IMG/VR virus record: IMGVR_UViG_3300013137_000017
Location: 1 to 64,000 of that record
DNA: 64,000 nt
From: a virus
Strand: one strand, 5' to 3'
How positions within the stretch are numbered: position 1 is the first letter of the stretch; each line of letters starts with the position of its first letter. Both the position numbers and the translations under genes were made by a program. Positions 6,300-55,541 of this stretch are shown here, piece by piece. The notes beneath the pieces were generated by a model. It saw only the letters and a program-made list of their open reading frames with translations. It was not told the DNA's origin and searched no databases.

Positions 6300-6306
6300 G
6301 TATCAT

Positions 6307-7132: not shown

Positions 7133-7406
7133 CGACGAAGGCTCAAAAACAAAGCCATACATGTTGCATATAGGAAATGCAAAACGAATAACCAGTTATT
7201 TATATCGAGACCTTGACGGCACATTGCTTATCCTATATGATTCAAAATGGTACGAAGTCTTTAAACCAAGCCTTTCCGAATTGCTTGAGATATGTCCGCA
7301 TCTGAAAGGAAGCCTATGGAAAAGATTTTGGGGATTTTTCAGGAAAGACAATGAATCAAAACGAGTTAAACAGAAAATATTCATGAACAAAATAATTCAA
7401 AACTGA
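7089..7406 (+). CDS. Hypothetical basic protein, 105 aa
   Basis: This 105-residue product has a beta-rich N-terminal half (SYLYRDLDGTLLILYDSKWY) followed by a helix and a very basic C-terminus (WKRFWGFFRKD and lysine-rich end). The strand-strand-helix order faintly recalls LytTR-type DNA-binding units, but I cannot confirm it. The basic tail fits nucleic-acid binding. It ends one base before the next start. Confidence 0.55.
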   Translation: MIIKLNPLQISVLNNDEGSKTKPYMLHIGNAKRITSYLYRDLDGTLLILYDSKWYEVFKPSLSELLEICPHLKGSLWKRFWGFFRKDNESKRVKQKIFMNKIIQN

Positions 7407-7407
7407 G

Positions 7408-7974: not shown

Positions 7975-7975
7975 C

Positions 7976-17565: not shown

Positions 17566-20500
17566 CTACTCTTGTTCATCAATAAGTGGTTCTATCAAGT
17601 CATATCCCTGGTTTGCAAACGGAGCATTTTTAAGTTTGAAATTCCCAAACATATCCTGCCAAAACCCAGCCAGAATATCTACTGCAGGGAAAGGACGTGT
17701 TACACCTTCAATCATCATAGGCCATACGAGCAACGACTGGTACGCATACCGGAAGTTTTTTACTATCCTCCAGTTAGGAATTGGCTTGTCTTTATCTTCG
17801 TCTTCACCCTGATCCACAAGCTGAGCAAATAAGAAGTACATAAACGTATACATCGCAAGATTCATCGTGGCTTTTGTCATCGCGTATTTCTTTGATGCGG
17901 AGAGATTCTTCAGTGAGAGGGGTTTCTTTGCAAGTATGGAATCTCTTATATATCCATATACAGTACTTACCGTTCCATCAACCATCACACGTTCCCACTG
18001 AGCTGTCCATTCACCATTTTCGTCTTTTATCATTTCGACCTTGCCTCCCTCATCCAGCGTCTTTTCTACCGCAAAAGCATTTTCAAACCTCGTTATCATC
18101 CACTGTTTAAACATCAGAAACATCTTTCCAATCATATAGTTAGCCCAAAGAGATCTCGTCTTATTATCATACGCTCCGATAATATATTTGTCTGAGAGGA
18201 CTTTAAACAACCTTGCCTCTTCAAGAGTATATCCCTTTACCGGGCCAACGGTATTCTCATAGGCAGCTCGTTTTTTCTGCCATTCCATATATGCTTTACC
18301 GGCTTCAGAGAAATCTTTCCCATTCCAACCAAGCCTTTTATCTTTTTTCGGATCATACGTAACGGTACCTGTCTTTTCATCATAATCATACGCATCCCAA
18401 GATCCATCATGCATCATCTGCGCTCCCATTGCTACGCATCTGGCAAATACATCAGTAGCCCAGTTACCCCAGTTCACATAGAACCTTGTGAAAATGCTCT
18501 TTTTCGTTTTCTGATGGATAGGAAGATTAATCAACTCATAATCATTGGAAGAAACTAACTGAAAATCATGCATAGCAAGTTGTGTCATTTTCTTGAATCC
18601 ATTCTTTGTAAGAAACGCTGCCGTTGATTTCAATAAATGTTGCGATCCAAAATATTTCTTATCAAATCCTCCTTTTTTCGCAATATTACTTGTGATTCCT
18701 TCAACAAATGCATACATCCCGTTTGTGACAAGACTTATAATTGGAATGTTTATATTAAAAGCCATGACCAGTGGAGCCGCAACAGACGATAATATCTGAA
18801 GCGTCGTATCAACTTCTTTTGGTGTTATCTTCTTTCGCTTCCCACGAATAGCCTGTTCATCAAACAACTCAAGAAATTGACTGACACCGAGATTTTTATA
18901 ATCTTTGTTCACTCTGTCATTGAGAGCAACGATCTTCATTGCATTAATAGTTGGCAATAGATTCTCTTCAATTTCACCATTGCGAATAGAGGACATAACG
19001 AAATAATTCATAAGCATTTCAAGATTCTTCGAGATATTTTTGTTGACTTCTTCATCTTTTAAGACATACTTATCTACGTTAACTCCGTTTTCAACTACTG
19101 TCTCTACTCCAAGTCCAAGAAGTCCATAACTACGGCGCGTATTCCCATACTTTTCTTTTTGGCTGTTAGTAATACCAAACTGCCAGAAAAACATATCTCT
19201 CATTTTATTGAGATCATCAATCTCGTCTATCTCCGCACGAGAAGATTCACTATACTGCGAATATACGTCTGTTAACTCCATCACACGTGCTTTCATGCCA
19301 GCATAGATCTTCCCCTGGCTAAATTTCTCTCCTGCAGACTGGGGAAGAATAGGAATCATCCCACGAACATAAGTGCTTTCTTCAGAAAACAACATCGCTT
19401 TTGCATCGTCTTCTGTAAATTCAAGCTGATCTTTAGCCATCAGATATCCGGATGGTTCGTTTTGATAGTGTTTGGTCAGGTTGTATATAAGCGCCTGTTC
19501 AATAACATTTACTATCTTTCTGCCAGCAGCCAACAATTCTTTACTGAGTCCAAGCTCTTTGGCTTTTTTTGCCATCTCTCTTTCCCACGCCGTCCTAATA
19601 TGCGGGTCATTTACGTCGTCTGTCCAATATATATGTCCGGTATAATGCATCTTTCCGTCAAGTCCCTTTTCCTGTACATATAACCGATCAAATAAATGAT
19701 CACTTATGTTGAGAACCCTTCCAGTAAGAAGCGGAGCAAACTCTTTATAGATATAATCAAACACTCCATCTTTTTCTTTGAGAGGCAACATCATCTGGTT
19801 ATAATTATTGATAACTCTGCCGAAGATATCAAGCCCAAACCTACGGATCTTCTGAACATCTTCTTGTCCTATACTTGATGTATCTGTTACAAATAACCGA
19901 AGCTGGTCTAAGTCCATGTACTGATTTATGTTGTAATCCATTACAGGAATCCCTCGAATCTGAAATATAGTACCAATTATCATTCGCATCTCTTCTATAT
20001 CATCAATGGAATAATGTTGAGTTCCAATAGAGATATCTGAAATTTTCTTCTGTAGCCTACGCAGTTGTCGGCTGAGGACAGAAATCTTTTCAGCATCAGA
20101 TATTCTTGTATTTACAGTAATCCCCCTGAGACCTACTCCCTCCTTGTCTTTCTTTGCTTTCAGAGAGGCAATATAATCCTGGGTAATATGACGTATGTTC
20201 TTTTGATCAAATCGTTCTGACAACGGAGATCCTTTTAAAATTTCCATTATCTCAGGAACTTTTCCAATATTAAGCATCGTTTTTCCAAGGGCGACATTAT
20301 CAATTTGTTCGAAACTAACACCGCCACCTGTACGATCTTCACCGTGTTTACCAGCATATAATTGTACTACGCCCATATCATTTATGACAACTTTTTTATC
20401 CTCTACAAACTTCTGAGCAAGCATCATCAAATATAATTTATGAAACTCTATCTCTTTATTGTCAATATTTATCCCCTTACGGACAGCAGTACGCTTATCA

Positions 20501-23500
20501 ATGATATAGTGAAACATCTTTGAATTTTTCGGTGTTAACGTATCGTATGCGCCAAGACTACCGCTTTGTACATCATAAATAGAGAGACCAATACCTTTAT
20601 CTGAAGTATAGTCTATAGAAACTATCGGGTCGAAACCAGGAAACACGTAATTTTCATCATAAAGATGTTTCAGATTCTTATTGTCTTTAAGTTTGCTATA
20701 CCTCATATATTTCGAATGTCTACTGAATCCAATAGATCTTTTAAACTTCATCGTTGTCTGATCTGTATACCTTGAAACAGTGTCACCCATATCATTTACA
20801 AAAGTATCTATCTCTTTGCGACCTCCCATAAGATATTCGATAACTTTATCCCCGAAATTATTTTTATAGGCTTCATACTGGTCAAATAAATTTTCCAAAA
20901 CAGGTTGGTTCTTTGGATCATCAAGATCACCAAATTTTCCATATCCAGGAGAGATAAATATAGGAACATCATTTTTGTTGTTGCGGATAACATCTTTGAG
21001 CCACCTGATTTGCAATTTTCTTCGTGTCTCAACATTCGCTTCTCCAAGATATATTACATCATGAAAATTTTTCAGGCTGACTACCGGGTTAACACTCTTA
21101 GATGAAAGCATCACTCCGGATTGAAGTTGCATTAACTTCTCAGAATTTAAGGAAGATATTGATTTCCCTGAAAACACAGCATCCGTAAGTACTTTTGCAA
21201 ACTGCTCAAGAGTTTGCATTTCCGGACTTATGTTTAGATTCAACTTCGGATCAAGACCAAAGATCGTATAGAAGAAGTTACGCAATGCATTCCAAAGCGA
21301 TGTTATAAAATCTTTAACGCTATTCCATATCTCCATCTTTCTATCAGCCTGTCGGCTCTTCCACGAATTGAGAAAGTCAGCGACATCCGATTCGCTTTTC
21401 CAGCCAGCGATGTTACTTATTACTTCATCTACGAGATCCTCACCAGAAAGATACGGATAAGCGGCTTTAATAAGTTTTGCTTCTTCATTGTTGGAATTTA
21501 TAATTCTAAGCGCTTCACTCCGCAGAGATTCGTATGATGGATGACTGATAGACTTCATTATAAGAATGACAATATGAGCTATTTCATGTATAGGAGTATC
21601 CTTCTGAATGCGATCAGTATTAATATACACTTTCCCATTATAAATGAATGCTATATCAGATCGGTTCGGATTCGTCGGATCGCTGTTTGATGTCAAGATA
21701 AATTTTATATTCGGAAATGCTTTATTGATAAAATAAATAAGTCCATCAATCATTTCAGAAGCCAACCGATTATCTTTACGAAGTCGCGAAGAGAGAGTAT
21801 CATTCTTTTTCTCTTTGACATAATCGATATTGTATTTATCATGCCATACAACTCTTGCATGAGAACTATCAGAAAGGACTACTGTATCTCCACCTTTTAC
21901 CTGGAATCCCATCGTTTTTGCTTCAGGGGCAAAGACACCGTGTTCATAATCAAAACTCAGCTTTATAATTCCATCACGATGAAATTTTACAATCTTATCT
22001 GATCCAATGGGTTTTCCAGTCAAATAAGGAACATTTGAACTGGATGAAAAATATGGATTTACAGTAAACGGGTATGGATTTACAGACTTTTTTACCTCTC
22101 CCATAGAGTCAGTCTCCATAAGCATCATTCTTATTCTAAGATCTTTATTTCTCCTTGTAAACTTTGCTCCGGACTTATTAGTACGGTCATATTTTGTTAA
22201 TATTCCATTCTTTCGAATAATTTCATCAGAGAGATAATCCATATCTGGATTGTATAATGTACCAGCACTACCTCTGTCCTTACGTACAAATTCACCGTAC
22301 TGTCGTTCGATATTATTATCGATCATGGAATTAAATGAACCGTTCCGTACTTCAAATCCAAAGTTCAACGCAGAATATAATCGGAAAAACTGTTGATGTT
22401 TCGGATTTAATTTCCTGAAGTCAATAATCATAACATTTCTTCTGTGATCATCTATTGACAAAGATCCGGAAAACTGAATTTGCTCAGACAAATTTACATT
22501 TGAAGTTCGTTCTATCTCTTGCACAAACAGATTGTTCTTATATGCATCATATTGTTTAAGATAACTAAGATATTGCGGTGCAAGTGCCATAAAGAGTCCT
22601 CGTCCATACTCAGACTGATCCATTGTAAAAACACCATTCTTTAAGCCAAGTTCATTCATAAAATCATCTTCAAAGCTAAATGTCTCGTTTTCCATTACAT
22701 TCCCAATGATGAATTTCTCAAAGTCATCTACTAATGGATTAAACTCATCTTCTCCCCAAAGTTCATTTCTCTGCGTTTTCTCCCGCACTAAATCCGTTAA
22801 AATATCAATATTCTGATCAACTAAAAACACTCTTTTAATTGACTTCTCAAGTTGGTTCATTAGGTCAAGATAAGAAATACTCCTCGGAATGTTCGCTATA
22901 ACTTCAGCTATATTGAATGTATTCCTGATATTTATTTCATTACCCATCTTATTCTTCGCCGACTTATCAGATGAATATTGATAAAAGTTTTCAATAAAAT
23001 ATTCGGCTTGTTGCTTTGGAGTTTTTACATATTTAGTATTCTTTTTACGAATAGCATCAATGTTTGACAGAAACACGGATAAGTCCATGCCAAGCCACTT
23101 CTCAACATTTTTAATATTTCCGGTAAGTTCGAATATATTTCCACCAATACTTTTTTCTATAGCTATAAAGTTAATAAGCCTGCGTACTTGTTCTCCTTTT
23201 AATGCTATATTCTTTAATTCTTGCATTGAATATCCTTCGACAGTTTCAACTCCTGTAAGGTATTTCCATATCTTTGACGTAAATTCTGACGTTGCCCGAT
23301 TTGCATTTATTGTCTTTGCGGTAGCTTTTACAACAGCAGGACTTGTGAGTATCTTATATATTCTCTCCTCGAAATATTTCTGTTTTTCTTCTACAGTTTC
23401 AAACTTATCCATCTCTGCCTGTTCACTTGAATTTAACCCGCTGAATAACAATCCTGCAATAAGAGGAGAAGTATATACGTTGATATTTAATCTCCCAAGC

Positions 23501-26500
23501 GCTCCACCAAGACCGGCATTTACCGTTGCAGCCTGTACTAACTTTGCAATCATCGCAAACGTCTCAGGGATAGCAACATCTTTTCCAAGAAAGGTAGATG
23601 ATCCGAAAAGTTCGGTTCTCTTTCCTTTTGGAATCGTAAACAGTGTTGTAAAAAAGTTGTTGAGATTAGCGAAATGACCTACAAGAACTTTTCCATCATA
23701 TATTATACGATCATTCTCGACTATCTTTCCAAAATTACTAAATGGCCATAACAGATCCTGGGGCTTGTCTTCCGAAAGACTTTCGGCGAAATTTTCAAGA
23801 GTATCTGTTTCTAATGCTGTCAAGATAAAAGGATGGTTTTTATAGTTATTGTAGTATTCCTGTATCCCCCGAAAGAACATTATCTGATCTATATTTTCAG
23901 TGTCTATACTGGCATCATCTTTTATTGGATGATAGATAATATTTACGGAATCCCCATCATAATCTGAATTGTCAAGTTGGTTTCTTTCCGGAGAAAGATA
24001 TATCAGATTTTCTGCATCATTGGCAAATGCAACAATCCTCCCCAATGATCCCATATTGCTATTCGTCGTAGGAATACGTACTATAAAAACATTTAATGCT
24101 TCATTGAATGCAAAATAATACCGTGACAAGTATGAAATTATGTGCTTTTTATTCAGCAACTTTCCTGACATTTCCAGAGTTCCTTCTTTGGCAGGATCTT
24201 TTTCCAATATATATTCTTCATATTTTCTTCTTAAAACACTTGCCATTTTTGAACCAAACGCCATATAAATATCATCGACAGAGATATCCGGATCTGCAAA
24301 TGCCTTGGATAATTCCTGATATATTTCGTCTGATGATGAACGTTGTGTTTTCAATCCACTGTCATAAAGAGAATAAACATCTTCCCCGATAACATAAGTC
24401 ATCGCTTCTTTAAGAGTAATATCTGGAGTAAGTCCGAATTTATCCATATGGTGAAAGGGAGCGATAACTTCTGCGGGCCGATATATTGCTTTTGGATTTT
24501 TATCAAGTTCATCTCTTGATGTTATCTCACTTCCATCCTCTGTAACATATCCGTGAGGCATTATCATCCTATATCCTTCTACACTATCATTCTCCAAGTT
24601 TTCATCACTATTGGAAAGAACAGGTATAGATCTTCCGTTTTTTGTTTGAACCATCTTTATCTTTGTAAACGAAGGTGCCTGCACGTGAAATGCTCCTGGC
24701 AATTTAAATCTCAAAGCACTTTCAGCATCATTATAAAACATTTGGATAGCAAAACTTCTTATCGCATTGATATCTACAGATGGATCATTGAGAAGTGACA
24801 GATGTTTGCCAGCATAAGAAACATTCCTTCCCCGCCTTAAAGCATTTTTTCTTATATAATCAATAAGTTCTCCGCGCTTCATGGATTGAATCTTTGTAAT
24901 CCACTTGTCTATATTCAATCTAATAGCATCAGTATATCGCTCGTTAATATCTTTATTATGATCAAATGTGCCAGTAACATGGATTACCTGTAAAGGCAAA
25001 GATGTCTCTTCGCCAAAAGGATTTTGCCGCATCTTTGTCTGATGGCGCAAAGTATCATTACGAACCCATACGATATTCTCATCACTATTAAGCTCCATAG
25101 GAACTGTTACATTGTCAAGCGTTACATTCTCTCCTGTTCTGCTTTTTAAATCATTAACTTTTGTAACACCTGTTTTTACCGCAGAAGAAAACACTACATA
25201 ACCGACCATTTTTTTATTCCATCCCTCTGAATCTTGCTGAACATATCTGACAAGATTATCTATTGCCTGATAATATGGGACATTGTTAGCAAGCATCGTT
25301 TTGAGCATACTATAAAGCTCATCCCCAATCATCATACGAGTCATCTCCTGATAAAAAGAACTATTTTTAAATTGGGATTCAGGAATAGGATATTGATTAT
25401 ATTTGTGAAATATTTCTGTTTCGTATCTATGTGAATAATAGTTGTTGACATTCTTTTTACTTCCAATACCTAATGTTCCGGCAGAAGCGGCAGAAGCAAG
25501 AAATAACATTCTATCGTATATCGGATTCATAATAGATAATCCATCTGTAAGTTTAATTTCCTTCTTGCCAAAAAGGGTGTTAAGACCGACAACATCCTTA
25601 AGATACACAACCCTCGATTCTTTAGGAAGTACATCGAGTATTGCTGAATACCTATCATCTTCATTTATCGTTGCATACTTATCTCCAGGTGCTACCGGCC
25701 CGGTTCCACGTTTTATAAAATCTATAAAATTCTTATAGCCATATACCGGCCCACGAACAAGTGGCGTAACCATTTCATTAATAAAATAATGATTCCAATA
25801 AATTGCTTCAAGCAAAGGATGATAGGTGGTATTTTCTTCTTTTACCTGTTTGTACCCATTATTTTTCATCTCTTTGCCTATCAAGAGGAAAAAGTCATCA
25901 CGTATCTCATTGGAAGCTGTAACTGCATTGCTAAGAGAATATATCTTACTCAGTAATTCTTTCGTTTCTTCTTCTTTTCCTAATTTTAAAAGTTTCTTCC
26001 TTTGTGCCTGTAACTCTTTTAATCTATCACGATAATTCTGAACATCCTGTTCATACTTCCTGAAAAACTCACCTAATGTTTTTGATGAATTTAGAGTTTC
26101 TTCTTCGATTCCTATCCTATCTTGCGGAGTAAGACTATTCTTAAATTTATCAGTTAACTCAAAAGTATCAAACAATGATACTTCAAACGCAGACAGGTTA
26201 TGTGCTGAATCTGCTATCTTTTGCAAGGAAAGATTAATATGTTGACTAAAGGCAGCATAAATTGCTTTATCTGCTTCAAGAGTGCTCATATCACGCAATT
26301 TCGTAATATTGATATCAGCTATAGGATTATCCGTTTGTGTGATAGCATTCCCAGGGAGTATTGTTCCATTCTTGATAATATAGTCACGATAAAGAACAAG
26401 ATCTTTCAATTCTTTCTTACCGCTTTTATAAGCATTCCAGTTCTCTTTAGAATACTTTTTAAGATCCTCATAATACCTTTTGATTATTTCGAGTTGATCA

Positions 26501-29500
26501 ATAAGAACGCTTGTACTTATCTGAAGTGTCCTTAACCGATTGAATGTTTCAAAATATTTTTTATCAACAAGGCTTACATCTTTTCCATTTTTCTGATAGA
26601 AGAATCTTGGAAAGTTTGGATATATAGCTCTGTCAGAGAATGTCTCAAGAATAGCGAACCCGGCAGACATCTCTTTGGTATACAGAATCTCTTCCAATGA
26701 CTTTTCAATAAGAACCTGATACTTATCTGCATCGGACATATTTTCAAATTTAACACCTTTCAGCGGGGCAGTGATACCGTCTATTGTAGACATTATCCGG
26801 TCGAACTTAATATTATTCGCCAAAAGCATATTATTTTTGTTATTCAATAAAACACCGCCTTCTTCTTGTATCTTCTTGAGTATTCTTTTGACAATGATAT
26901 TTGAACCATCATAATTCATTTGTCCTACAGTCGCAAAAAGATCGAACAATGTCGAAGAACGATTTACTTTAAAAGAGATATTGTTTTCGACATTACGTGT
27001 TGCGTCTGTTGAATTCTTGCTGTAATTATATTCCGTAGCATCCGCAATTTTACCGAGAAATTTAAACTGATCCGGAGGAGATGGATATGCAACTCTCTCT
27101 GTGGTATTATCTATGTTATAGATCGTATTAATACTATATGTAGGATGATCTGAATTATCTTTATAGTAATTCATCAATATTGTCCACAAGCCATTTGTTA
27201 TCTTATCCTCATTTAATTTTTGATGTATCAACTCTTTGTTAAGTTCATCTGTTACCATTTTATCAACAGCATCAGATAACATTATGTTGACCTTTACGGA
27301 AAGCATCATGTAATATAATCCCTGTCCTATCTCTTTATAACTGCCTAATAGATTTTCATCATGCAGAGTTTTTATCTGCTCAGGATATATGAAAATTCCA
27401 AGAAAGTCAAAAAGATCCTTCGCATTAGTCACTGTAATATCGAAAACTCCTTTTTCAAGAATCTGTTTTCCGGTACGTGTATTGACAATTCCATCAGCAC
27501 TGACTTCAAACCATTGTCTTTCGCCTGGATTCAACTTCTGCCTGACGAGATCATTTATCCTTGTTCCACTTGCATCCATAAGTTTTATACCAATGGAATT
27601 CTTTATATTACTTCTTGCCCCGCTTCTATGCAGATCCTTATATTCCGTAGTCTCGATCCTTCCCATAGTGGACACTGTGAATTTAAGTGCCTCTTTTTCA
27701 TACAGAGATTCATAATGATTCATCAGCGCATTCAACAAATTCCAGAAACTAAAAATCTTTTCCATATAATCCGCCTCATCCATACCTGTTTTATCGATAT
27801 AGGCACGCATATAATTTCGTTTGATAGGATCAATAAAATCATCGACCAGTTTAAGCATTCCGATTCCTTCAAACATCCATGATGTCCTGTTATTGATCTT
27901 ATTCTTTGCTATAAGACTATCCGCATTGGTATATATTGCTTCATCGCCTATCTCAAACAAGAAACTCTGCAAGAGATTTTTTTCGTTTCCAGTAGGTAAG
28001 GATTTTTTCAACATTCGAAGTTCATTCATCCATGCATCGAAAGTAAGTTCTTCTCCTCTATTCAGTATTTTCTGAACGCTGCGCAAGAGCATTTTATCAA
28101 GTACTGCCGTTTCGCAAAAGCCATGCTTAAGTCTTTTATTTTCATCGTATTTCTTCCATATACCATCTGCAGATACTTTCCATTTTGGGATTGTATTCAA
28201 TACGATATTTACTATAAAACTCCTATTCCCAACATGGTTCGTATCATTGAAATCTCCAGCCTGAAGTTTAAATATAGTCTTTGTATATTCGTCAAACGTA
28301 AGTCCTTCACTTTTTATTAACTTGTCCAGACGGATATTTCCGAAGATATCCTGCATCATTGAAAAGAACAACGTCTTGTTAGAGACCATATGAATAATCT
28401 CGTATTGACGAAGGATCTTTTCATTTGAGATTCTGAATTCTCCCGATTTCGTTCTGGCCATCTGCATAAGATCATATTGCTCAGGAGTAATATGTGAAAT
28501 AAATACATCTTCAGTTCGTATTCCGTCAACACTATTTGGATCAAAAAGATATATTGTTTTACGGTTTTTTTCATTATATACTATGTCCGTAAGTCTTTCA
28601 CCCTGTTCATCAGCAACTACATTTGCTGACTGTATCTTTCCTTCATTTAATATTTTCTCCCTGATAACAAGGAGATCTTCATACATCTTTGTGACTGTAA
28701 TCCATGCAGGATCTACTCCCTGAGCCATATCTTTACTCCATTCAGAATAATGCTTTATAAACATAGGAGCAAGTAATTCTCCTTTAATCCTGTTAATATT
28801 TTCCTGCGTCTTAAATATCTCTGTAAGTTTTTCATGTACCTCAGGAGAATTATATTCATTTTCTATTGGCATAAGATATTCAGAAGTAAAATTGCTTAAG
28901 TTCTGAAACTGGTGATCTCTGAATACACCTCTGTCCGCGTCATAAAGAACATTAACCATTGAATATTCTTTTCCACGAATCCTATTTATAACCATTGTAA
29001 TCCAGTCAAGGATTCTTTTTACAAATCCAGAAATCCCTCTTCCCCGATATGATTTATCCTGGAAGATAGATGCTATATATTCTATGGCCTGTTTATCCGT
29101 TATTTCAGTTACATCAACAGCACGTCCAATTTTTACAATATGTTGTTTTATATCGGCTAATAATTGTTCACGTGCTTCCGCAGTAATAACATATTCCGTG
29201 ATGATATGCATGGATTCATGCCGACCTGCGTATGGATTTACCATTCCATTATGCTCTGAAAGACTTATAAAGGCTTGTAACACCATTCCGTAAAATTGTC
29301 TCGAAGCCGGCATTTCCATAATTCGATTCATATCAACAAAATCAACATTCTTAAAACTTACGCCAAGAATATCTCTTATCTGATCCAAAGCAACTTCCTT
29401 ATCAACAAAATTATCTGTTAAGACTCCATCACTTCCAACAGGCATAAGCCATGAATCTTTTTCTTCGTCAACAGACGCAACTCCAGGTCTTTCATCGGGA

Positions 29501-32500
29501 ATTGAAAGATAAAATGACTTTTGACTCAATCCGTAGGTCTTTGTAACAATGTTCTCCGTTATGAACTGTCCTTTATGTCCAGTCCATGCAGCTTTTCGCA
29601 TCGGTTGGTTTTTAAGATTAAGAGTATCTTTCATCTTAAGGATCTCTTTCAACACGAATAGTATTGCTTTTGATTTAGCTTCAACAGTAGTGATAGGATT
29701 CCCACTTTTATCTGTTAATGATCCGTATGTTGAAATGTTCAAGAATCCTTTCTGGTTAAAATATATCAATTTTGAGAATTCAGGATATCTTTTAAAAAAC
29801 GCTTCATTAATCGTGATGAAGTTATACGCCTGGGTTTCTTCGTAAATAGCATATGCCTGTTTCAATGCTTCATCCAACTCTTTTTCTGAACGTTCTTCTT
29901 CCGGAAGCATCAGTAACTTCTCGGCAACAGATAGTTTTTGACGAAACTCCAACGAATTTATAGTTTCTTCAAATTCACGAATTATGTCCGTGACATAACC
30001 TGACAGACTTTCAGCATCAAATAACGGAGCGGCATCAAGAAGTATCTCAGAACCATTCTTTTCATTATTCCACGATAACTTTGCTATAAATCTTTTTCTT
30101 CCATTTATCTTTGGAATTTTTACAAGCCTTGACTCAATTGGATGAACACGAAACCCATAACGTTCAGCGTTACTTAATAGTTGATCCCATGTAATGGCTT
30201 CATCATCTGAAAATTTATTAAGAGCATTACCTTCTGTTATCTTCTTTATCTCAACAAATACTTCCTCACCACCTATCAATTGGCGCAATAATTTCAATCG
30301 ATACACATTAAGGTCAATCAATATATCCCTGAATTTCTTATCAGAGATAAAAGCTCCGTTATTACGGAAAAATGCTTCCAATTCATCCGTGGTATAATTC
30401 TTTTTTCCATCAACATAATCTCTCAATTCAGAAAATTTATCTAATGCCCGAACAGTTTTTCCTTTATCTTCTTTTGAACTGAAATCAAATTCAGGTTCTG
30501 AATCGATGGATATATAGTGTAGTCCTTGTGCTTCCATCCATTCTTTTGTAACAGCCTTTGCTGCTTGTTCGCCAGAGACTCTTTTGATCTCTTTTTTGAC
30601 ATCTTTCATAATACCCTCAAAAAAAGCATCCATTTTATCTTGAGGAATCATATTGATGATTACATTGCTAAATTTTGTTTCATTTCTATTAACGACACCG
30701 GTAACTGGATTAACAACAATCGCGTTTATTGATTCAAAATACTTTTTTTGAAGTATAGTGCCTGGCATAAGCCGTCTATTGATTATCTTTCTTACGTTTA
30801 CAAGTGCACTATCCTTAGCATAGAAATCATTTTCGTTATATGGAATTCCATATTTCGTTGTTGTCAATGGAAACAGATATACCGCGCCAGAACTATAAAG
30901 TATGTTGTTATTTGAAAATTCATGTGCTGTCTCCACAAACTTATTGAATAATCTGAATTTCGACTGGTAGAAATATTGGTTTTGGAATTCTTCAACTGTC
31001 AGTGGATCTTCATATCCATCAAGATATACATGATAAATCATTTTCGATTCTTCATAGATAGCTGTAACATTTTTTATGATTGCCATCTGACCGGTATTCA
31101 TATTCACCCATGTAGTGTTATAATACATATCAGATCCCGGAAACAATTCATCAACATTCTCATCAGGGATAATTCTTTCATTTTGATAAAATTCTTCTTC
31201 ACTTACAAGAGGAGTTGTCGCTTCTGTCCCAATCCGTTCAAATCCATCTTTTATGTATTTCGTTTTCATATCATCAGAAAGAGTCATAGGCACTCCCCAT
31301 GAAAAGGCAAATCCAGGTTTTGACTCATAATTAAAAACATTGATATTATTAATCTTATATCCCTGTTCAAGTAAAATAGCGGCATATGTTCCAAGTTTTC
31401 TTGCATCAAGATCAAGAATAGTATTCTTTCTATTATTTATTTCGAGATCATAGATATCCACTATTGGTGAGACTTTCCCATCCTGGTATGTATATCCGAC
31501 GATATTAATTAAAAACGGATGCCCATATGTCCCATCTTTTGATTTTATCTCTGGCAGAAGTACAGATAATTTTGACTTTACAAGACTTATCATCTGTGGA
31601 TCAGTAGTAATTGATTTAATCATCGATTTAGCAAAAGCTATCGGATTATCAATTCGCATTTTTTCAGATACAATGACTTTATTTAATTCTTCAACCGCGC
31701 TAACGACTTCTTCTAATGGGTGATTTTTGTTATCAATAATGGATAAAATCGCTTTTTGAAATACTTGCGAAAATCTGGCATTATAGTTCATCCTATCAGT
31801 TTCATCTTCAGGAAGTATTCCTTCCTCAACTGCTTCCTGATGTATGATCGCTGTAACTCTGGATTCTTGTTCTTCGCCAGTGTGTGGTTTTTTTAAACTA
31901 TCCAGAAATTCTTTGGTCTTTTGATATACATCTTTTTCATTATTGACATTTGTATTACGATTAAAATCATAGTTCTCCTCTCCTTTTGGAACTTTTAAAA
32001 GATATTCATCTCCAGGAGCAACTTCACGAAGAGTTGCTATATAATTCATCATATCGTTAAGATTCATCGTAGGTTCAATTTCGCTGAATCTTTGTATATT
32101 TCCAGCTATAGATTTCACCGTTGAGACAATAGCCACATACGCATTAGATCCTTGTGCTCTTCCCAAAGTAGTTATAAGTATTCTTTTAGCACTACTATTT
32201 CCTACACGATTTCCAGGATAGATTTTTTTATTTCCTTCATCGAAGACATTTGTATAAAGAAATACACTCTCATGTCCTTCTCCTGAAAACCATCGTTTGC
32301 TATCAGAAGGATCTTTCACGCATGTCCTTATGCTGGATTCATAATCTTTCACTTCAGGATATTTCTCTAATACGTACTCCATCTCTTCCTTGTCAAATAC
32401 TACAAGTATAGAATCCTGAGGCCCCTGACCAGGAAGTTTTTTCCTATCCAGAAAGTCAGCAATAAGCTCTTGTTGACTTTGATGTGAATATATTCCAAAG

Positions 32501-35500
32501 CGTACTCCATCTTCTGTGTCATAAATTAATTCACCAACATCAATCATTTCGTTTGAATTACTCGACCTGATTTTTGCCAGTGTAGAATGCATTGTACGGA
32601 TGCCGCTACGAAATATCGTTACCATCGGAAGCAACCTCATTCCCAATTGATCTATATATGATCCAAAAGCATCTGAATCTTCAAAATTTGGAAGTTGTTC
32701 TGAATCTCCGATCATAAAAAATGTCATGCCCTTATTTTCTGAGACAGCTTTTGAAATTCTTCTATTAATGATTTGCTGTTCTTTTATACTCCATGCTGAT
32801 GCTTCTTCAACGACGACATAATCATACTTTTCTTTTATATTATTTTTGATAAAATCACTTTCTTTTATTATCGTGAATTTGCTATCACTAAGCAAACCAC
32901 CCATACTTTTAGATAGGCTTTCATAATTATCTTGATAAAATTGATTTGGAACTACCACAAGTACATTCTGAAATTTTCCAGTAAGTTCTTTTCTTGTTCC
33001 TGCAATATCGATTGCTGCCTGTGTTGACTTTCCCACACCGGTATATCCACGGATAACAACAGTATTTGGCATAAGTGTTTTACTTACATCTTTCCGTGTT
33101 TTTGCGATAAATTCATTACCAGGAGATAAACTATATATTACAGCTTGAATAATTATTTCCTGTTGTTCATAGGAAGAAGGAAATATAAATGGAAGACCTA
33201 TCTTTCCTAATTTGTGTTTTTGATAGAAATCTCTATATGCTTGTCTTACTTCTTTGTACGAAAACTTCGTTCCTTTTCCTGTTTCTCCCAATGTATTAAT
33301 CAGATGAAGCATATTAAGTGTATAGTAAAAGAACAGTTGCCTGGAGGTTGTAAGTGGGGCATTTTTTATTCCATATGTTGCTTTGCCTTCTTCATAATTC
33401 TCCACTGTAAGGACTCCTCCAAATCCATCAGAGGTATTCATATCAACAATAAGTTTGTCAGTAAATTCGGAGAACCATGCATACCCGGTCATAGGCCAGT
33501 TTTTAATCACTTCTTCTTCGATATCTTTCAGCTTGCCAGATAATGTATCTGTTGTCGCCACAAGATGTTTTTCAAGCTCCGTGATGATTTTTAATTCCAT
33601 CTCGTCTCTTGTAGTCTTTGTTGCATTTTGATACTTCATCCATATCTGACGGATATGTGTTGCTGCATCGTCCTTTTCTACATTTTTAGCAAGAAATGAC
33701 TGAAGATCTGTTATTGCTTTTGCAAATTCCGGGATATCTTTATCCTTTTCAAAGATAAACCGCAGAAAAGAATACTGCATTTCCATATGTTGCAGTTTAA
33801 CCCTTATCTTTTCCATAGAACGGATCCGTTCGTCATTCTCTGCAGCAATAATAATTGATCTTAATTGAGATTTTATTTCAGTTATATTGTTATTAATCCT
33901 ATTAATTTCTATATCAGTAAGGCGGAATTCATTATTCCATAGCTTTGTGTGTTCAATAGCCTGAGGGTTAGATTCTACATTATCCTGGAAAAATGTCTTA
34001 TTCATATTTATAGCAAGTTCTACGGCACGAACCCTTTTATAGAACTCATTAGCTTTTTTAAGAACATCAACTGGATTATTGAGAACAGTTGTTCCAATTA
34101 TCTCATTATCCGAAAGAAATTTCCAAAGCATATCTTCCGAAACCTTTGTATTTGTACGAATTCCGAGTCTATCTACAATACTTTTTATGATATCTACTCG
34201 TACATTTGGATCTTGTCCAAGCAATTCAGTGACAGTTGTAATCTTATTTTTCTTTCCTGTTTCAACATTCAAAATAGAACCAATACTTTCCTGTATTTTA
34301 CGAAGTTCTACAAGAGATGCACCTGATTCCACTGCAGATATTTCATCACCATCTTTTATCTGTTCTTTAAAGGCTATTCTTTGATTATTTATTGCTTCTA
34401 TGTGACGTTCTATTCTATCTTTTAGAGTCTTCTGTTGGTCAGTAGTAAAACTCTCGGATGTAGTATTATTAAGACTTTCACTAAGTTGTGAAATTAAACC
34501 TGAAATGTTTTCTTTAGTACTGCTTAATGACTTCTTATTTGTTAGCATGTCAGGAATTAAGCCAATCGCCTCATCAATATGTTGCATAACACGTTCAAAT
34601 CCTACTGGCCCACTTTCAGATAAAATATCAAATGACCTATCTTCCATAGGTTTTGTAATCTCTTGATTATACTTATCTATCTTTGCCTTGAAATTTCTAT
34701 CAAGATGATTAATAAATGAGTTTCTATCTTCAAAGTCGTAAAGTTTTAAGGCATCTATTACGTGAGAAAATATACCAGTTGCTTCTCCCAGTGTAAGGCT
34801 TTTATTAAATTTTTCAAGATATTCATTGGTGATTTTTTTAACTTCATCACCATAATTTTCATCATCTATTCTCATTTTCGTGCGTACATCAAGGATCGCC
34901 TGATCTTCTGCCTGGCGACTCATAGCATCTTTTATCGCTTCAAATTGCAAGAACAGATTTGTATAAGCAAGACTTTTCTTTGGATGTAAAAGGCTTCCAT
35001 TCTTGTCATAAATAACATCCGTCTTTGGCTCGATGATATCTCTCATCTTTTTTACATACTCTTCTCTTTCTTCTTTAAGCTCTTCTTTTGTTTCGGTGCC
35101 ATCAACAACAGGTTCTTTCGAAAATGAAACAGATTTTGGAGTAACCTTTTTTCCATTCGCCAATTCTTCAAGAGAAGCATCAATATGATCTATTACTTCC
35201 CCGCTTTTAACAGCACTATCTATCAAAGATGGTATTCCATCTGTTGCCAATGCGACCTGTGGACTATTTAACCCATATTTCTGTATTACGCCAACACGTA
35301 TGTCGAGATCATCAAGAAACATAGATACAAGTTCTCCGGCTTGTGAATTAGCTACGGTACCATCCTTTATCACCTCACCAGCAGTAGTCATATAATTCTT
35401 TCCAATCTCTCCTTTTTGTACCATGGTAGTAAGTTCCTTCTCTACACTTACACGAAGTGCCGGATTATCCGCTACCATTCTTGCGAACATACTAAATTGC

Positions 35501-37323
35501 ATATCCGCTGATGGATCTGATGAAGACTTATTGCCAATCATTGGACTGACAACGCCCATTGTAATAAGTGTAGAAAAGAATGCAGCCCATCCCTGATCCC
35601 AGTCAAAGTCATCTTCTATAACCTTTTTCCCTGAGAGTATACTATTGGCGAGTTCCTGTTTTCTTTCAAACTGATTACGTTCAGAAAGACTAATAGGCTT
35701 AAATTCATTCGCATCATATCTGTTAACAAGCATATACGGAGCGCCTGTATTTCCACGAGTAATACCATTACTGTCTTCCCATAAACCATTGTCTGGATTT
35801 TTTACTATATCATAACTACCAAAAGTATTCGCAAACCTATCAGCCCAGTTGCCATAATATCCATTTGCAAGAGAACTCAAGCCAGTGTGCATTAAACCCT
35901 CAACATCTTCTTCAACCATCTCAACGACTGATCCTATGCCAACTCTGTAAGCCCAGTGGCTATCCATAAGTTTAATAAGTTCACCGGGGCCTTTTGTAAG
36001 TGAGTTATAAACCTTATTAGCAATGGCTATCTTTGACGACTTTGCCAGTTCGGTTTGTGTTTTCCCGGTAAGGTTTACTTTTTCTCCATATTTCTGCTGA
36101 AATATCTTTTTAAAATCCTGAGAAGTAAGTTTTTTTGCTCCTCCTTTTGAAGCAAGTTTATTTACAAGCTGTCCTCCAAGACGTTCATCCACAGGAATTA
36201 TCATTTCTGATAAATGTGTAGCAATACCATACGGTATTGAATTTCTTGCAGCTTCCATATAGTCAAGACCACCTTCCTGAAACTGTTCTTGAAACATACT
36301 CATTGATTGTAGATCACCTGCAAATAACGATGCCTGTGTCGCAAGCCGTTGTGTCCATATAGCTCCAGCACCAAGAGCCCTGACACCCGCACCAACAGCT
36401 CCACCAGTAAGTATCATCCCTGCTAACTGGCCAACACCATTAAAAACCTGCGCAAGAAATGATGATGTATTATCAAACAAGCGTTTCTTCTCGTCTATAT
36501 TTTGTGTAGATACGGAATTCGCCCAGTTTGTCATATTAACATATGACTGATACCAGTCTAATTCTTTATATGCTTCATCTGTTGAATCATGGCTAAGGCG
36601 ATATGTAAGAGATCCTATTGTCCCATATCCAGCGGCAATTCCTTTTACCATCAGCGGGCCAAAGCCATACCACATATTTCTTGACATCGTAGTAAGAGGA
36701 TTGTCCGATCTTATTTTTCTATCAAACCATCCTTTTATCGTTTCAGAAGAGACAAGGGTTCCTTGTGGAGCTTCTTGCCAGAAGAATGAATTTCCGTCAG
36801 GAGCCAGTTTGCGATACAAGTATCCTTTTGCCATTGCAGCTTCTGCAAGTGGACGCATATTTCCATCTGCAGAGATATACACATTTTTCATTGAGGCAGA
36901 AGCATCTCCAGGGTCTGTCTGCAAAAATCCGGTAGCCGGGTCAAATATCCCGAATTCAGGGCCGCTTTTTTTTGTATCATGAACACTGTAATTCGATACT
37001 TTCAGACCATACTCTTTTGCAAATATCCTTCCCCATGGATTATTATCGGCATATACAGTACTGGTCTCATATGGATTCCAGTCCTGATTTTTATAGACAT
37101 GCATCATGCCATCAAGTTCTCCGATAAGTCTATCAACTTCTTCTGGTTTATCTTTAAGTTCAGGATAGTTCGTAACAAGTTCATCTTTCGATGGTGGACG
37201 CACCTGTAATCCAGTCTCTTTTTCCGCTTCAAACAGATCACGATATGTTGCTCCTTTATGGATTGCATCGAATAAGTCGATATATTGTTTCGGTTTGTTT
37301 TCTGGTAATATTGGCTCTGCCAT
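17566..37323 (-). CDS. Giant virion polyprotein: helicase, peptidases and RNA polymerase
   Basis: This is a 6585-residue uninterrupted frame. The N-terminal 600 residues have hydrophobic stretches (near residues 300-330 and 580). A superfamily 1 helicase follows: Walker A GYTGVGKST 1426-1434, VVVEEAS near 1505, GDSEQLP near 1539, FRSG, and TLGRAQGS near 1725. A possible RecB-like nuclease lies near 1790-1960. HESMH is at 2702-2706 and HEIAH at 5246-5250, both HExxH zinc sites. RIPTTNSNMG and DYDGD (4454-4458) mark a two-barrel RNA polymerase. The C-terminus has a hydrophobic helix (YTFMYFLFAQL). In crAss-like phages such proteins are packaged and injected to transcribe early genes. This one fuses parts usually split among several genes. 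Confidence 0.85.
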   Translation of the reverse strand: MAEPILPENKPKQYIDLFDAIHKGATYRDLFEAEKETGLQVRPPSKDELVTNYPELKDKPEEVDRLIGELDGMMHVYKNQDWNPYETSTVYADNNPWGRIFAKEYGLKVSNYSVHDTKKSGPEFGIFDPATGFLQTDPGDASASMKNVYISADGNMRPLAEAAMAKGYLYRKLAPDGNSFFWQEAPQGTLVSSETIKGWFDRKIRSDNPLTTMSRNMWYGFGPLMVKGIAAGYGTIGSLTYRLSHDSTDEAYKELDWYQSYVNMTNWANSVSTQNIDEKKRLFDNTSSFLAQVFNGVGQLAGMILTGGAVGAGVRALGAGAIWTQRLATQASLFAGDLQSMSMFQEQFQEGGLDYMEAARNSIPYGIATHLSEMIIPVDERLGGQLVNKLASKGGAKKLTSQDFKKIFQQKYGEKVNLTGKTQTELAKSSKIAIANKVYNSLTKGPGELIKLMDSHWAYRVGIGSVVEMVEEDVEGLMHTGLSSLANGYYGNWADRFANTFGSYDIVKNPDNGLWEDSNGITRGNTGAPYMLVNRYDANEFKPISLSERNQFERKQELANSILSGKKVIEDDFDWDQGWAAFFSTLITMGVVSPMIGNKSSSDPSADMQFSMFARMVADNPALRVSVEKELTTMVQKGEIGKNYMTTAGEVIKDGTVANSQAGELVSMFLDDLDIRVGVIQKYGLNSPQVALATDGIPSLIDSAVKSGEVIDHIDASLEELANGKKVTPKSVSFSKEPVVDGTETKEELKEEREEYVKKMRDIIEPKTDVIYDKNGSLLHPKKSLAYTNLFLQFEAIKDAMSRQAEDQAILDVRTKMRIDDENYGDEVKKITNEYLEKFNKSLTLGEATGIFSHVIDALKLYDFEDRNSFINHLDRNFKAKIDKYNQEITKPMEDRSFDILSESGPVGFERVMQHIDEAIGLIPDMLTNKKSLSSTKENISGLISQLSESLNNTTSESFTTDQQKTLKDRIERHIEAINNQRIAFKEQIKDGDEISAVESGASLVELRKIQESIGSILNVETGKKNKITTVTELLGQDPNVRVDIIKSIVDRLGIRTNTKVSEDMLWKFLSDNEIIGTTVLNNPVDVLKKANEFYKRVRAVELAINMNKTFFQDNVESNPQAIEHTKLWNNEFRLTDIEINRINNNITEIKSQLRSIIIAAENDERIRSMEKIRVKLQHMEMQYSFLRFIFEKDKDIPEFAKAITDLQSFLAKNVEKDDAATHIRQIWMKYQNATKTTRDEMELKIITELEKHLVATTDTLSGKLKDIEEEVIKNWPMTGYAWFSEFTDKLIVDMNTSDGFGGVLTVENYEEGKATYGIKNAPLTTSRQLFFYYTLNMLHLINTLGETGKGTKFSYKEVRQAYRDFYQKHKLGKIGLPFIFPSSYEQQEIIIQAVIYSLSPGNEFIAKTRKDVSKTLMPNTVVIRGYTGVGKSTQAAIDIAGTRKELTGKFQNVLVVVPNQFYQDNYESLSKSMGGLLSDSKFTIIKESDFIKNNIKEKYDYVVVEEASAWSIKEQQIINRRISKAVSENKGMTFFMIGDSEQLPNFEDSDAFGSYIDQLGMRLLPMVTIFRSGIRTMHSTLAKIRSSNSNEMIDVGELIYDTEDGVRFGIYSHQSQQELIADFLDRKKLPGQGPQDSILVVFDKEEMEYVLEKYPEVKDYESSIRTCVKDPSDSKRWFSGEGHESVFLYTNVFDEGNKKIYPGNRVGNSSAKRILITTLGRAQGSNAYVAIVSTVKSIAGNIQRFSEIEPTMNLNDMMNYIATLREVAPGDEYLLKVPKGEENYDFNRNTNVNNEKDVYQKTKEFLDSLKKPHTGEEQESRVTAIIHQEAVEEGILPEDETDRMNYNARFSQVFQKAILSIIDNKNHPLEEVVSAVEELNKVIVSEKMRIDNPIAFAKSMIKSITTDPQMISLVKSKLSVLLPEIKSKDGTYGHPFLINIVGYTYQDGKVSPIVDIYDLEINNRKNTILDLDARKLGTYAAILLEQGYKINNINVFNYESKPGFAFSWGVPMTLSDDMKTKYIKDGFERIGTEATTPLVSEEEFYQNERIIPDENVDELFPGSDMYYNTTWVNMNTGQMAIIKNVTAIYEESKMIYHVYLDGYEDPLTVEEFQNQYFYQSKFRLFNKFVETAHEFSNNNILYSSGAVYLFPLTTTKYGIPYNENDFYAKDSALVNVRKIINRRLMPGTILQKKYFESINAIVVNPVTGVVNRNETKFSNVIINMIPQDKMDAFFEGIMKDVKKEIKRVSGEQAAKAVTKEWMEAQGLHYISIDSEPEFDFSSKEDKGKTVRALDKFSELRDYVDGKKNYTTDELEAFFRNNGAFISDKKFRDILIDLNVYRLKLLRQLIGGEEVFVEIKKITEGNALNKFSDDEAITWDQLLSNAERYGFRVHPIESRLVKIPKINGRKRFIAKLSWNNEKNGSEILLDAAPLFDAESLSGYVTDIIREFEETINSLEFRQKLSVAEKLLMLPEEERSEKELDEALKQAYAIYEETQAYNFITINEAFFKRYPEFSKLIYFNQKGFLNISTYGSLTDKSGNPITTVEAKSKAILFVLKEILKMKDTLNLKNQPMRKAAWTGHKGQFITENIVTKTYGLSQKSFYLSIPDERPGVASVDEEKDSWLMPVGSDGVLTDNFVDKEVALDQIRDILGVSFKNVDFVDMNRIMEMPASRQFYGMVLQAFISLSEHNGMVNPYAGRHESMHIITEYVITAEAREQLLADIKQHIVKIGRAVDVTEITDKQAIEYIASIFQDKSYRGRGISGFVKRILDWITMVINRIRGKEYSMVNVLYDADRGVFRDHQFQNLSNFTSEYLMPIENEYNSPEVHEKLTEIFKTQENINRIKGELLAPMFIKHYSEWSKDMAQGVDPAWITVTKMYEDLLVIREKILNEGKIQSANVVADEQGERLTDIVYNEKNRKTIYLFDPNSVDGIRTEDVFISHITPEQYDLMQMARTKSGEFRISNEKILRQYEIIHMVSNKTLFFSMMQDIFGNIRLDKLIKSEGLTFDEYTKTIFKLQAGDFNDTNHVGNRSFIVNIVLNTIPKWKVSADGIWKKYDENKRLKHGFCETAVLDKMLLRSVQKILNRGEELTFDAWMNELRMLKKSLPTGNEKNLLQSFLFEIGDEAIYTNADSLIAKNKINNRTSWMFEGIGMLKLVDDFIDPIKRNYMRAYIDKTGMDEADYMEKIFSFWNLLNALMNHYESLYEKEALKFTVSTMGRIETTEYKDLHRSGARSNIKNSIGIKLMDASGTRINDLVRQKLNPGERQWFEVSADGIVNTRTGKQILEKGVFDITVTNAKDLFDFLGIFIYPEQIKTLHDENLLGSYKEIGQGLYYMMLSVKVNIMLSDAVDKMVTDELNKELIHQKLNEDKITNGLWTILMNYYKDNSDHPTYSINTIYNIDNTTERVAYPSPPDQFKFLGKIADATEYNYSKNSTDATRNVENNISFKVNRSSTLFDLFATVGQMNYDGSNIIVKRILKKIQEEGGVLLNNKNNMLLANNIKFDRIMSTIDGITAPLKGVKFENMSDADKYQVLIEKSLEEILYTKEMSAGFAILETFSDRAIYPNFPRFFYQKNGKDVSLVDKKYFETFNRLRTLQISTSVLIDQLEIIKRYYEDLKKYSKENWNAYKSGKKELKDLVLYRDYIIKNGTILPGNAITQTDNPIADINITKLRDMSTLEADKAIYAAFSQHINLSLQKIADSAHNLSAFEVSLFDTFELTDKFKNSLTPQDRIGIEEETLNSSKTLGEFFRKYEQDVQNYRDRLKELQAQRKKLLKLGKEEETKELLSKIYSLSNAVTASNEIRDDFFLLIGKEMKNNGYKQVKEENTTYHPLLEAIYWNHYFINEMVTPLVRGPVYGYKNFIDFIKRGTGPVAPGDKYATINEDDRYSAILDVLPKESRVVYLKDVVGLNTLFGKKEIKLTDGLSIMNPIYDRMLFLASAASAGTLGIGSKKNVNNYYSHRYETEIFHKYNQYPIPESQFKNSSFYQEMTRMMIGDELYSMLKTMLANNVPYYQAIDNLVRYVQQDSEGWNKKMVGYVVFSSAVKTGVTKVNDLKSRTGENVTLDNVTVPMELNSDENIVWVRNDTLRHQTKMRQNPFGEETSLPLQVIHVTGTFDHNKDINERYTDAIRLNIDKWITKIQSMKRGELIDYIRKNALRRGRNVSYAGKHLSLLNDPSVDINAIRSFAIQMFYNDAESALRFKLPGAFHVQAPSFTKIKMVQTKNGRSIPVLSNSDENLENDSVEGYRMIMPHGYVTEDGSEITSRDELDKNPKAIYRPAEVIAPFHHMDKFGLTPDITLKEAMTYVIGEDVYSLYDSGLKTQRSSSDEIYQELSKAFADPDISVDDIYMAFGSKMASVLRRKYEEYILEKDPAKEGTLEMSGKLLNKKHIISYLSRYYFAFNEALNVFIVRIPTTNSNMGSLGRIVAFANDAENLIYLSPERNQLDNSDYDGDSVNIIYHPIKDDASIDTENIDQIMFFRGIQEYYNNYKNHPFILTALETDTLENFAESLSEDKPQDLLWPFSNFGKIVENDRIIYDGKVLVGHFANLNNFFTTLFTIPKGKRTELFGSSTFLGKDVAIPETFAMIAKLVQAATVNAGLGGALGRLNINVYTSPLIAGLLFSGLNSSEQAEMDKFETVEEKQKYFEERIYKILTSPAVVKATAKTINANRATSEFTSKIWKYLTGVETVEGYSMQELKNIALKGEQVRRLINFIAIEKSIGGNIFELTGNIKNVEKWLGMDLSVFLSNIDAIRKKNTKYVKTPKQQAEYFIENFYQYSSDKSAKNKMGNEINIRNTFNIAEVIANIPRSISYLDLMNQLEKSIKRVFLVDQNIDILTDLVREKTQRNELWGEDEFNPLVDDFEKFIIGNVMENETFSFEDDFMNELGLKNGVFTMDQSEYGRGLFMALAPQYLSYLKQYDAYKNNLFVQEIERTSNVNLSEQIQFSGSLSIDDHRRNVMIIDFRKLNPKHQQFFRLYSALNFGFEVRNGSFNSMIDNNIERQYGEFVRKDRGSAGTLYNPDMDYLSDEIIRKNGILTKYDRTNKSGAKFTRRNKDLRIRMMLMETDSMGEVKKSVNPYPFTVNPYFSSSSNVPYLTGKPIGSDKIVKFHRDGIIKLSFDYEHGVFAPEAKTMGFQVKGGDTVVLSDSSHARVVWHDKYNIDYVKEKKNDTLSSRLRKDNRLASEMIDGLIYFINKAFPNIKFILTSNSDPTNPNRSDIAFIYNGKVYINTDRIQKDTPIHEIAHIVILIMKSISHPSYESLRSEALRIINSNNEEAKLIKAAYPYLSGEDLVDEVISNIAGWKSESDVADFLNSWKSRQADRKMEIWNSVKDFITSLWNALRNFFYTIFGLDPKLNLNISPEMQTLEQFAKVLTDAVFSGKSISSLNSEKLMQLQSGVMLSSKSVNPVVSLKNFHDVIYLGEANVETRRKLQIRWLKDVIRNNKNDVPIFISPGYGKFGDLDDPKNQPVLENLFDQYEAYKNNFGDKVIEYLMGGRKEIDTFVNDMGDTVSRYTDQTTMKFKRSIGFSRHSKYMRYSKLKDNKNLKHLYDENYVFPGFDPIVSIDYTSDKGIGLSIYDVQSGSLGAYDTLTPKNSKMFHYIIDKRTAVRKGINIDNKEIEFHKLYLMMLAQKFVEDKKVVINDMGVVQLYAGKHGEDRTGGGVSFEQIDNVALGKTMLNIGKVPEIMEILKGSPLSERFDQKNIRHITQDYIASLKAKKDKEGVGLRGITVNTRISDAEKISVLSRQLRRLQKKISDISIGTQHYSIDDIEEMRMIIGTIFQIRGIPVMDYNINQYMDLDQLRLFVTDTSSIGQEDVQKIRRFGLDIFGRVINNYNQMMLPLKEKDGVFDYIYKEFAPLLTGRVLNISDHLFDRLYVQEKGLDGKMHYTGHIYWTDDVNDPHIRTAWEREMAKKAKELGLSKELLAAGRKIVNVIEQALIYNLTKHYQNEPSGYLMAKDQLEFTEDDAKAMLFSEESTYVRGMIPILPQSAGEKFSQGKIYAGMKARVMELTDVYSQYSESSRAEIDEIDDLNKMRDMFFWQFGITNSQKEKYGNTRRSYGLLGLGVETVVENGVNVDKYVLKDEEVNKNISKNLEMLMNYFVMSSIRNGEIEENLLPTINAMKIVALNDRVNKDYKNLGVSQFLELFDEQAIRGKRKKITPKEVDTTLQILSSVAAPLVMAFNINIPIISLVTNGMYAFVEGITSNIAKKGGFDKKYFGSQHLLKSTAAFLTKNGFKKMTQLAMHDFQLVSSNDYELINLPIHQKTKKSIFTRFYVNWGNWATDVFARCVAMGAQMMHDGSWDAYDYDEKTGTVTYDPKKDKRLGWNGKDFSEAGKAYMEWQKKRAAYENTVGPVKGYTLEEARLFKVLSDKYIIGAYDNKTRSLWANYMIGKMFLMFKQWMITRFENAFAVEKTLDEGGKVEMIKDENGEWTAQWERVMVDGTVSTVYGYIRDSILAKKPLSLKNLSASKKYAMTKATMNLAMYTFMYFLFAQLVDQGEDEDKDKPIPNWRIVKNFRYAYQSLLVWPMMIEGVTRPFPAVDILAGFWQDMFGNFKLKNAPFANQGYDLIEPLIDEQE

Positions 37324-39348: not shown

Positions 39349-39370
39349 AATACGATATTTTACAAATACC

Positions 39371-39395
39371 AAAACCCCGCATCATCTGACCGGGG
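39371..39395 (-). terminator. Terminator-like hairpin
   Basis: On the minus strand CCCCG and CGGGG form a five-pair GC-rich stem around an 11-base loop, followed by TTTTGG. It lies between the GroES-like gene and the next cargo gene. The stem is short and the T run brief, so it may only partly stop transcription. Confidence 0.5.
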
Positions 39396-49482: not shown

Positions 49483-49502
49483 GGCTTATGATTTTAAGAA
49501 AT

Positions 49503-49536: not shown

Positions 49537-49556
49537 TTATGTTACTCTAAGCCAGC

Positions 49557-55360: not shown

Positions 55361-55541
55361 TAGCTTTTGTTGAATAATCATCAAGTTTCAAAGCTCTGCG
55401 TCTTAATTTCTCCCTTTCTCTGTGTATTAATAACCTTCCTTGGCACAAAAGAGCTTTAATACATTCTTTTGATAATTCATTTTTTTTCCCTTCCAGAATG
55501 TCTATTAAATTTTCAAGATATTTATCATCTACTTCTATCAT
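55344..55541 (-). CDS. Small protein after portal, 65 aa
   Basis: This 65-residue helical, basic protein starts at ATG 55541, overlapping the portal stop by four bases (ATGA). It contains an ECIKALLCQGRLLIHREREKL helix with two cysteines. It is probably co-translated with portal and may be a small assembly factor. No family is recognised. Confidence 0.6.
   Translation of the reverse strand: MIEVDDKYLENLIDILEGKKNELSKECIKALLCQGRLLIHREREKLRRRALKLDDYSTKAIDNNH

Follow-up and report, generated by a model that had tools for sequence, protein, structure and literature searches.

Does a single gene of this virus encode in one chain what crAss-like phages usually distribute over several giant genes, and what might such a protein do? 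The question is raised by one open reading frame in the DNA analysed here (the window, 64,000 nucleotides), which is taken from a 66.8 kb metagenome contig without end repeats (IMG/VR record IMGVR_UViG_3300013137_000017) that is probably incomplete. A preliminary description, made from the letters, had called the product a virion polyprotein with RNA polymerase (RNAP), helicase and two peptidase sites.

The giant gene and its phage

The frame starts with an ATG at 37323, six bases past the upstream gene, and is free of internal stops. It covers 30.9% of the window, in agreement with the uninterrupted frame of 6,585 residues and about 31% described before; that it lies on the minus strand had been left unstated. 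The chain contains exactly two HExxH motifs (HESMH at residue 2702, HEIAH at 5246), a single DxDGD motif (DYDGD at 4454-4458) and the Walker A motif GVGKS at residue 1429, the motifs being found at the residues named previously. The gene and its neighbours are the following.

17566..37323, minus strand: single giant gene (6,585 aa, 753 kDa, 3 Cys)
37330..39372, minus strand: 680-aa Cys-free protein directly upstream of the giant gene, likely cargo by position and Cys content
40363..42225, minus strand: 620-aa Cys-free protein, likely cargo by position
42237..46349, minus strand: tail stabilization/muzzle-type protein of 1370 aa, assigned from its position and length
52775..54238, minus strand: major capsid protein (MCP), crAss-type (phrog_11589, E=7.5e-20)
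55538..58204, minus strand: portal, crAss-type (phrog_6547, E=3.4e-38)
58207..60264, minus strand: terminase large subunit (TerL), crAss-type (phrog_6681, E=4.1e-49)

Pfam and PHROGs searches with the giant protein gave nothing beyond a weak AAA_30 match; weak matches to a PHROG 'transcriptional repressor' and to Pfam YopX and Spectrin are regarded as chance. A family search with the 680-aa protein gave no match.

Separate genes could have been joined by assembly or gene prediction, and the window does come from a metagenome contig without end repeats. However, single frames of 6,102-6,810 aa with identical module order occur in eight other divergent viruses, and one of these frames (G008) was recovered again in two further assemblies, identically in G006 and with 100% match over the overlap in G017, which is cut by the contig end. 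The artefact, which the preliminary description had itself proposed as a check, is thus refuted by independent contigs and its probability is negligible. Uncultured relatives over a wide branch have retained the single gene, which is therefore a genuine and stable arrangement; a sequencing error does not account for it.

The earlier assignment to crAss-like phages is supported by TerL, portal and MCP, which match crAss-type families, and by the gene layout typical of Crassvirales (structural block with TerL, portal and MCP, then the transcription block). These three proteins share no more than about 20-29% identity with named phages; for TerL the highest value is about 29% over a part of the protein, the sampling covering part of the diversity. 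Searches with individual window proteins revealed no relatives in viral contigs or among named phages, and relatives were reached through TerL alignments. In the TerL tree, which took in three named crAss phages, the window falls apart from these into a 19-row branch of uncultured phages (support 99/98); the deeper order is unsure because two long outgroup branches meet at that point. The muzzle-type protein is 23-30% identical to proteins at the same position in G014, G015 and G016. Judged by these genes, the phage is a deep-branching crAss-like phage.

A scan for Bacteroidota-type promoters gave no enrichment, so no host is claimed from it. One phage contig with a homologous giant of at least 5,562 aa (PWLM01000149.1, L236) belongs to a metagenome-assembled genome labelled Bacillus; as misbinning is likely, the label is not used as host evidence. 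Two further observations concern other genes. The TerL genes of G007 (5134-8388) and G008 (64384-67638) contain an in-frame insertion of about 390 aa, likely an intein, and an intein-like in-frame insertion is also found in TerL of Dulem virus 41 (L009:1-3360). In three phages the giant, itself nearly without Cys, is followed immediately downstream by the gene of a Cys-rich protein: in the window (16420-17508, 13 Cys in 362 residues, family search without match), in G036 (5805-7724, 41 in 639) and in G034 (47819-49879, 45 in 686).

Modules and domains of the chain

Comparison with the separate proteins of relatives divides the chain into three modules, the boundaries of which are approximate because they are drawn from where those separate proteins end.

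28714..37323, minus strand: module A, gp47-like, residues ~1-2870
32044..33141, minus strand: putative SF1B (RecD/Pif1/Dda-type) helicase domain, residues 1395-1760
28834..29406, minus strand: HExxH domain 1, residues 2640-2830 (HESMH at 29206-29220)
22114..28713, minus strand: module B, gp50/gp66-like RNAP, residues ~2871-5070
23332..24924, minus strand: RNAP catalytic region, residues 4134-4664 (DYDGD at 23950-23964)
17569..22113, minus strand: module C, gp49/gp65-like, residues ~5071-6585
21304..21936, minus strand: HExxH domain 2, residues 5130-5340 (HEIAH at 21574-21588)
17569..19371, minus strand: conserved C-terminal domain with a GSWDAY motif and hydrophobic segments

In module A the HE1 profile matches residues 2151-2293 of crAss001 gp47, near the C-terminus of that protein, and the N-terminal profile matches the giants of cr4_1 and cr55_1. 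The C-terminal profile matches phi14:2 gp65 (55 bits) and crAss001 gp49 (25 bits), and module C is a separate gene in G015, G023 and G026; the C-terminal domain gave no match to PDB sequences. In crAss001 gp47, gp50 and gp49 are packaged separately and are thought to be ejected. The modules match these separate crAss proteins in order, so that the fusion of normally separate parts noticed earlier can be specified: by homology the giant is a collinear fusion of three cargo proteins, a gp47-like protein, a gp50-like RNAP and a gp49-like protein.

The RNAP family profile was compared with the whole PDB and matched 6vr4_A, the virion RNAP of phi14:2, with E=1.2e-11 and the DxDxD aligned, all following matches having E-values of 0.039 or worse. 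Profiles from five divergent homologues match crAss001 gp50 (67 bits) and phi14:2 gp66 (49 bits) as well as proteins of cr111_1, Dulem 41 and cr4_1. RxP and DxDxD are invariant across nine homologues, and the DxDxD is aligned in all relatives retaining the RNAP; the RxP...DxDxD arrangement resembles the signature of the cellular beta-prime subunit. A structural model of residues 3600-4790 is of low overall confidence (mean pLDDT 56, pTM 0.47), and 6vr4_A was the sole significant PDB match that Foldseek found with it (E=5.4e-8, 1,143 columns, TMq 0.33); in the viral library the named significant matches are mostly crAss-like phage proteins. Profile and structure comparison thus both reach 6VR4, which bears out the polymerase proposed at residue 4454, and the check that a missing two-barrel match at this site would refute it ended with a match. 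The giant is therefore predicted to carry a Crassvirales-type RNAP homologous to phi14:2 gp66, with DxDxD preceded by RxP. An N4-type virion RNAP of the T7-like single-subunit fold was also considered and rejected, as the signature is of the two-barrel type.

The superfamily 1 helicase motifs mentioned in the preliminary description are indeed present at about residues 1,420-1,720. In each of the 15 relatives motifs I, II, III and VI can be aligned, and GxxGxGK[TS], DE[AS]S, GDxxQ and TAxxRA are recognisable with single-position variants; motif II of the window reads EEAS. The helicase profile matches RecD in the PDB (E=4.5e-8) and also Pif1 and Dda, and Pfam AAA_30, weak in the window, is above cut-off in G014. 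We assign residues 1395-1760 to the SF1B helicases, with a predicted unwinding activity.

Both HExxH sites reported before are followed by a conserved Glu, as is known for the ligands of gluzincin-type metallopeptidases. In domain 1 the HExxH and a Glu about 50 aa further on are conserved in 14 of 14 aligned sequences, crAss001 gp47 among them; domain 2 is found in 15 of 15 sequences, and in an alignment of eight no more than four columns are invariant, namely the H, E and H of the site and the Glu downstream. The model of domain 2 (pLDDT 71) consists of strands followed by the HExxH helix and the Glu helix. It has no significant fold match in the PDB, so that the term peptidase is based on the motif. 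They are likely two zinc-protease domains.

It was proposed earlier that the chain is a polyprotein which perhaps cleaves itself. Three separate virion proteins, as in other crAss phages, would then arise by cuts between A and B and between B and C, for which HExxH domain 2, present in every fused relative, may be responsible; moreover, in relatives (G015, G023, G026, cr4_1, crAss001) the parts are encoded separately and the breaks fall close to these junctions. However, the protease is not tied to the fused state. Domain 1 also occurs in unfused proteins such as crAss001 gp47, where there is nothing to cut, and is absent from the fully fused G021, G034 and G036, domain 2 is found in the separate phi14:2 gp65, and the giant RNAP-tape protein of phage P23-45 is full length in virions (PMC10770324). 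A self-cleaving viral polyprotein is therefore not supported; self-cleavage is possible and not favoured, and a chain cut into three virion proteins is considered unlikely, although it keeps some weight.

Fused and split chains, and a probable loss of the RNA polymerase

Helicase, RNAP, HExxH site 2 and C-terminal domain are contained in one frame in the window (6,585 aa) and in eight other phages: G008 (6,381 aa, identical in G006), G014 (6,102), G031 (6,605), G020 (6,810), G032 (6,685), G021 (6,369), G036 (6,690) and G034 (6,603). The chain is split after the RNAP in G026 (5,836+1,725 aa), G023 (5,301+2,695) and G015 (4,534+1,414), and G016 is split into 1,863+844+3,430 aa; G033 is cut by the contig end and counted neither as fused nor as split. 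In named crAss phages the parts are three genes, or A and B are fused. This distribution would be most simply explained if the parts were fused once, early in the branch, and came apart again at least twice. A human gut contig, MT835470.1 (32003-58747, L238), carries the same cargo set over five frames, and there the RNAP core itself is divided between two frames across a gap of about 1 kb, perhaps an intron.

The sister of the window in the TerL tree (99/96) is G019 (IMGVR_UViG_3300025316_000011; L227/L228). Its chain of 4,862 aa keeps the helicase, both HExxH sites and the C-terminus and lacks the RNAP core with the DxDxD. In the position of the RNAP, at residues ~2600-3430, it has a domain that matches part of a family of 2,564-residue phage proteins (phrog_7348, E=2.4e-9) and is common to other very large phage proteins. 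An RNAP profile search of the 81 kb contig found nothing elsewhere. Provided that the G019 contig is right, the loss of the core with retention of the rest indicates that the chain functions beyond transcription.

One could go further and regard the protein mainly as a DNA-entry and host-takeover protein of the polyvalent type, with the RNAP as an optional plug-in that G019 has exchanged for the phrog_7348-type domain. The preliminary description had already been reminded of multi-domain polyvalent proteins, a likeness that is an analogy only, as the Pfam search of the window chain revealed no polyvalent-associated domains. Furthermore, all other relatives with the core on their contig have intact catalytic residues in the RNAP, and G019 is one metagenome contig. 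We consider this explanation quite improbable.

Proposed role in the virion and known systems

Only three Cys are observed in the giant, while 54 are expected from the other genes of the window (Poisson P~1.5e-19). All fused homologues have 0-7 Cys, against 8-18 in the muzzle-type protein next to them wherever its frame was read. The giant gene follows stabilization and cargo genes, the same position as in crAss001, and the Cys-free proteins encoded at 37330-39372 and 40363-42225 occupy the place of the crAss001 cargo proteins gp45 and gp46. As controls, the ejected T7 proteins gp15 and gp16 are without Cys, while the T7 RNAP, which is not ejected, has 12; crAss001 gp46, gp47, gp49 and gp50 have 0-3 each, and crAss001 cargo has 0-2.4 per 1,000 residues. 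The lack of Cys in N4-like virion RNAPs was attributed to their passage through tail and periplasm (PMC3715699, PMC3915230). In crAss001 virions gp45, gp46, gp47, gp49 and gp50 were identified as cargo by mass spectrometry, and partial unfolding during ejection was proposed (PMC10172136). From homology, gene position and Cys depletion we infer that the giant is packaged in the virion and ejected.

We therefore regard it as quite probable that the giant is an all-in-one virion cargo of a crAss-like phage, in which the counterparts of gp47, the RNAP gp50 and gp49 would be packaged and ejected as one chain, the first part of which also contains an SF1B helicase. The sequences settle the integrity of the gene, the homology and order of its modules, the catalytic motifs, the clade-wide fusion and the Cys depletion, on which this reading builds; packaging, ejection, action as an intact chain, early transcription and the roles of helicase and HExxH domains are deduced from them. 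The low-confidence RNAP model (pLDDT 56) and G019, which lacks the RNAP core and keeps the rest, speak against it. In the virion the chain would lie close to the portal; it would leave through the tail in a partly unfolded state, either before the DNA or together with it, and refold in the cytoplasm, where the two-barrel RNAP would transcribe early genes from the incoming genome while the helicase may open or translocate the DNA. A function in envelope passage or on host targets may fall to the HExxH domains and the hydrophobic segments at the C-terminus, and a single chain would fix a 1:1:1 dose and the order of delivery. That the molecule is a self-contained genome-entry engine, whose helicase and RNAP together pull the DNA in while transcribing and whose RNAP is an exchangeable cartridge swapped in one lineage, is a speculative extension to which we give little credence.

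As an RNA polymerase in a single chain the protein is very large, with 6,585 residues here and as many as 6,810 in relatives, and how a protein of about 750 kDa would pass a tail and refold is a question common to all ejected virion RNAPs. The branch, in which the parts occur fused, separated behind the RNAP, separated at other points or without the RNAP, provides a natural comparison that could tell the parts needed for entry from those needed for transcription.

Among known systems, Thermus phage P23-45 gp96 (5,002 aa), a tape measure fused to the virion RNAP, is also a giant single virion chain with a two-barrel RNAP, metallopeptidase and membrane domains, and it is full length in the virion (PMC10770324). 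It differs as a siphovirus tape measure with an N-terminal RNAP and no homology shown to the other modules of the giant. The coliphage N4 virion RNAP gp50 (~3,500 aa; PMC12633501) is likewise an ejected giant single chain with an HExxH domain, and N4-like virion RNAPs are Cys-free; its polymerase is of the T7-like fold and unrelated, and it has about half the length of the giant.

The closest systems are crAss001 gp47+gp50+gp49 and phi14:2 gp67+gp66+gp65, which share homologous modules in the order gp47 - RNAP - gp49, a DxDxD RNAP, HExxH sites and few Cys. Unlike the giant, they are encoded by separate genes (combined 6,102 aa in crAss001 and 5,398 aa in phi14:2), and no SF1 helicase was detected in them by profile. 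In the Suoliviridae giants of cr4_1 (4,491+1,803 aa), cr10_1 (4,460), cr50_1 (4,774+1,386) and cr55_1 (4,551+2,007) A and B are already fused, while C, unlike in the window, is separate in cr4_1, cr50_1 and cr55_1. The cr4_1 giants (L011:28523-47411) contain 38 and 18 in-frame TAG codons, which fits TAG recoding. The cr50_1 giant (L239:16326-30650) carries an SF1 helicase after the RNAP (4249-4448), whereas that of the window precedes it (~1400), which suggests relocation of the domain or independent gain. Already known, then, are crAss RNAPs that are partly fused and reach ~6,000 aa (reviewed in PMC10136315) and a helicase on the A+B chain of cr50_1. As far as the literature consulted shows, and an earlier mention is possible, it is new that a broad branch has all three parts fused as a rule, that an SF1B helicase lies N-terminally in this fusion and that a sister lacks the RNAP.
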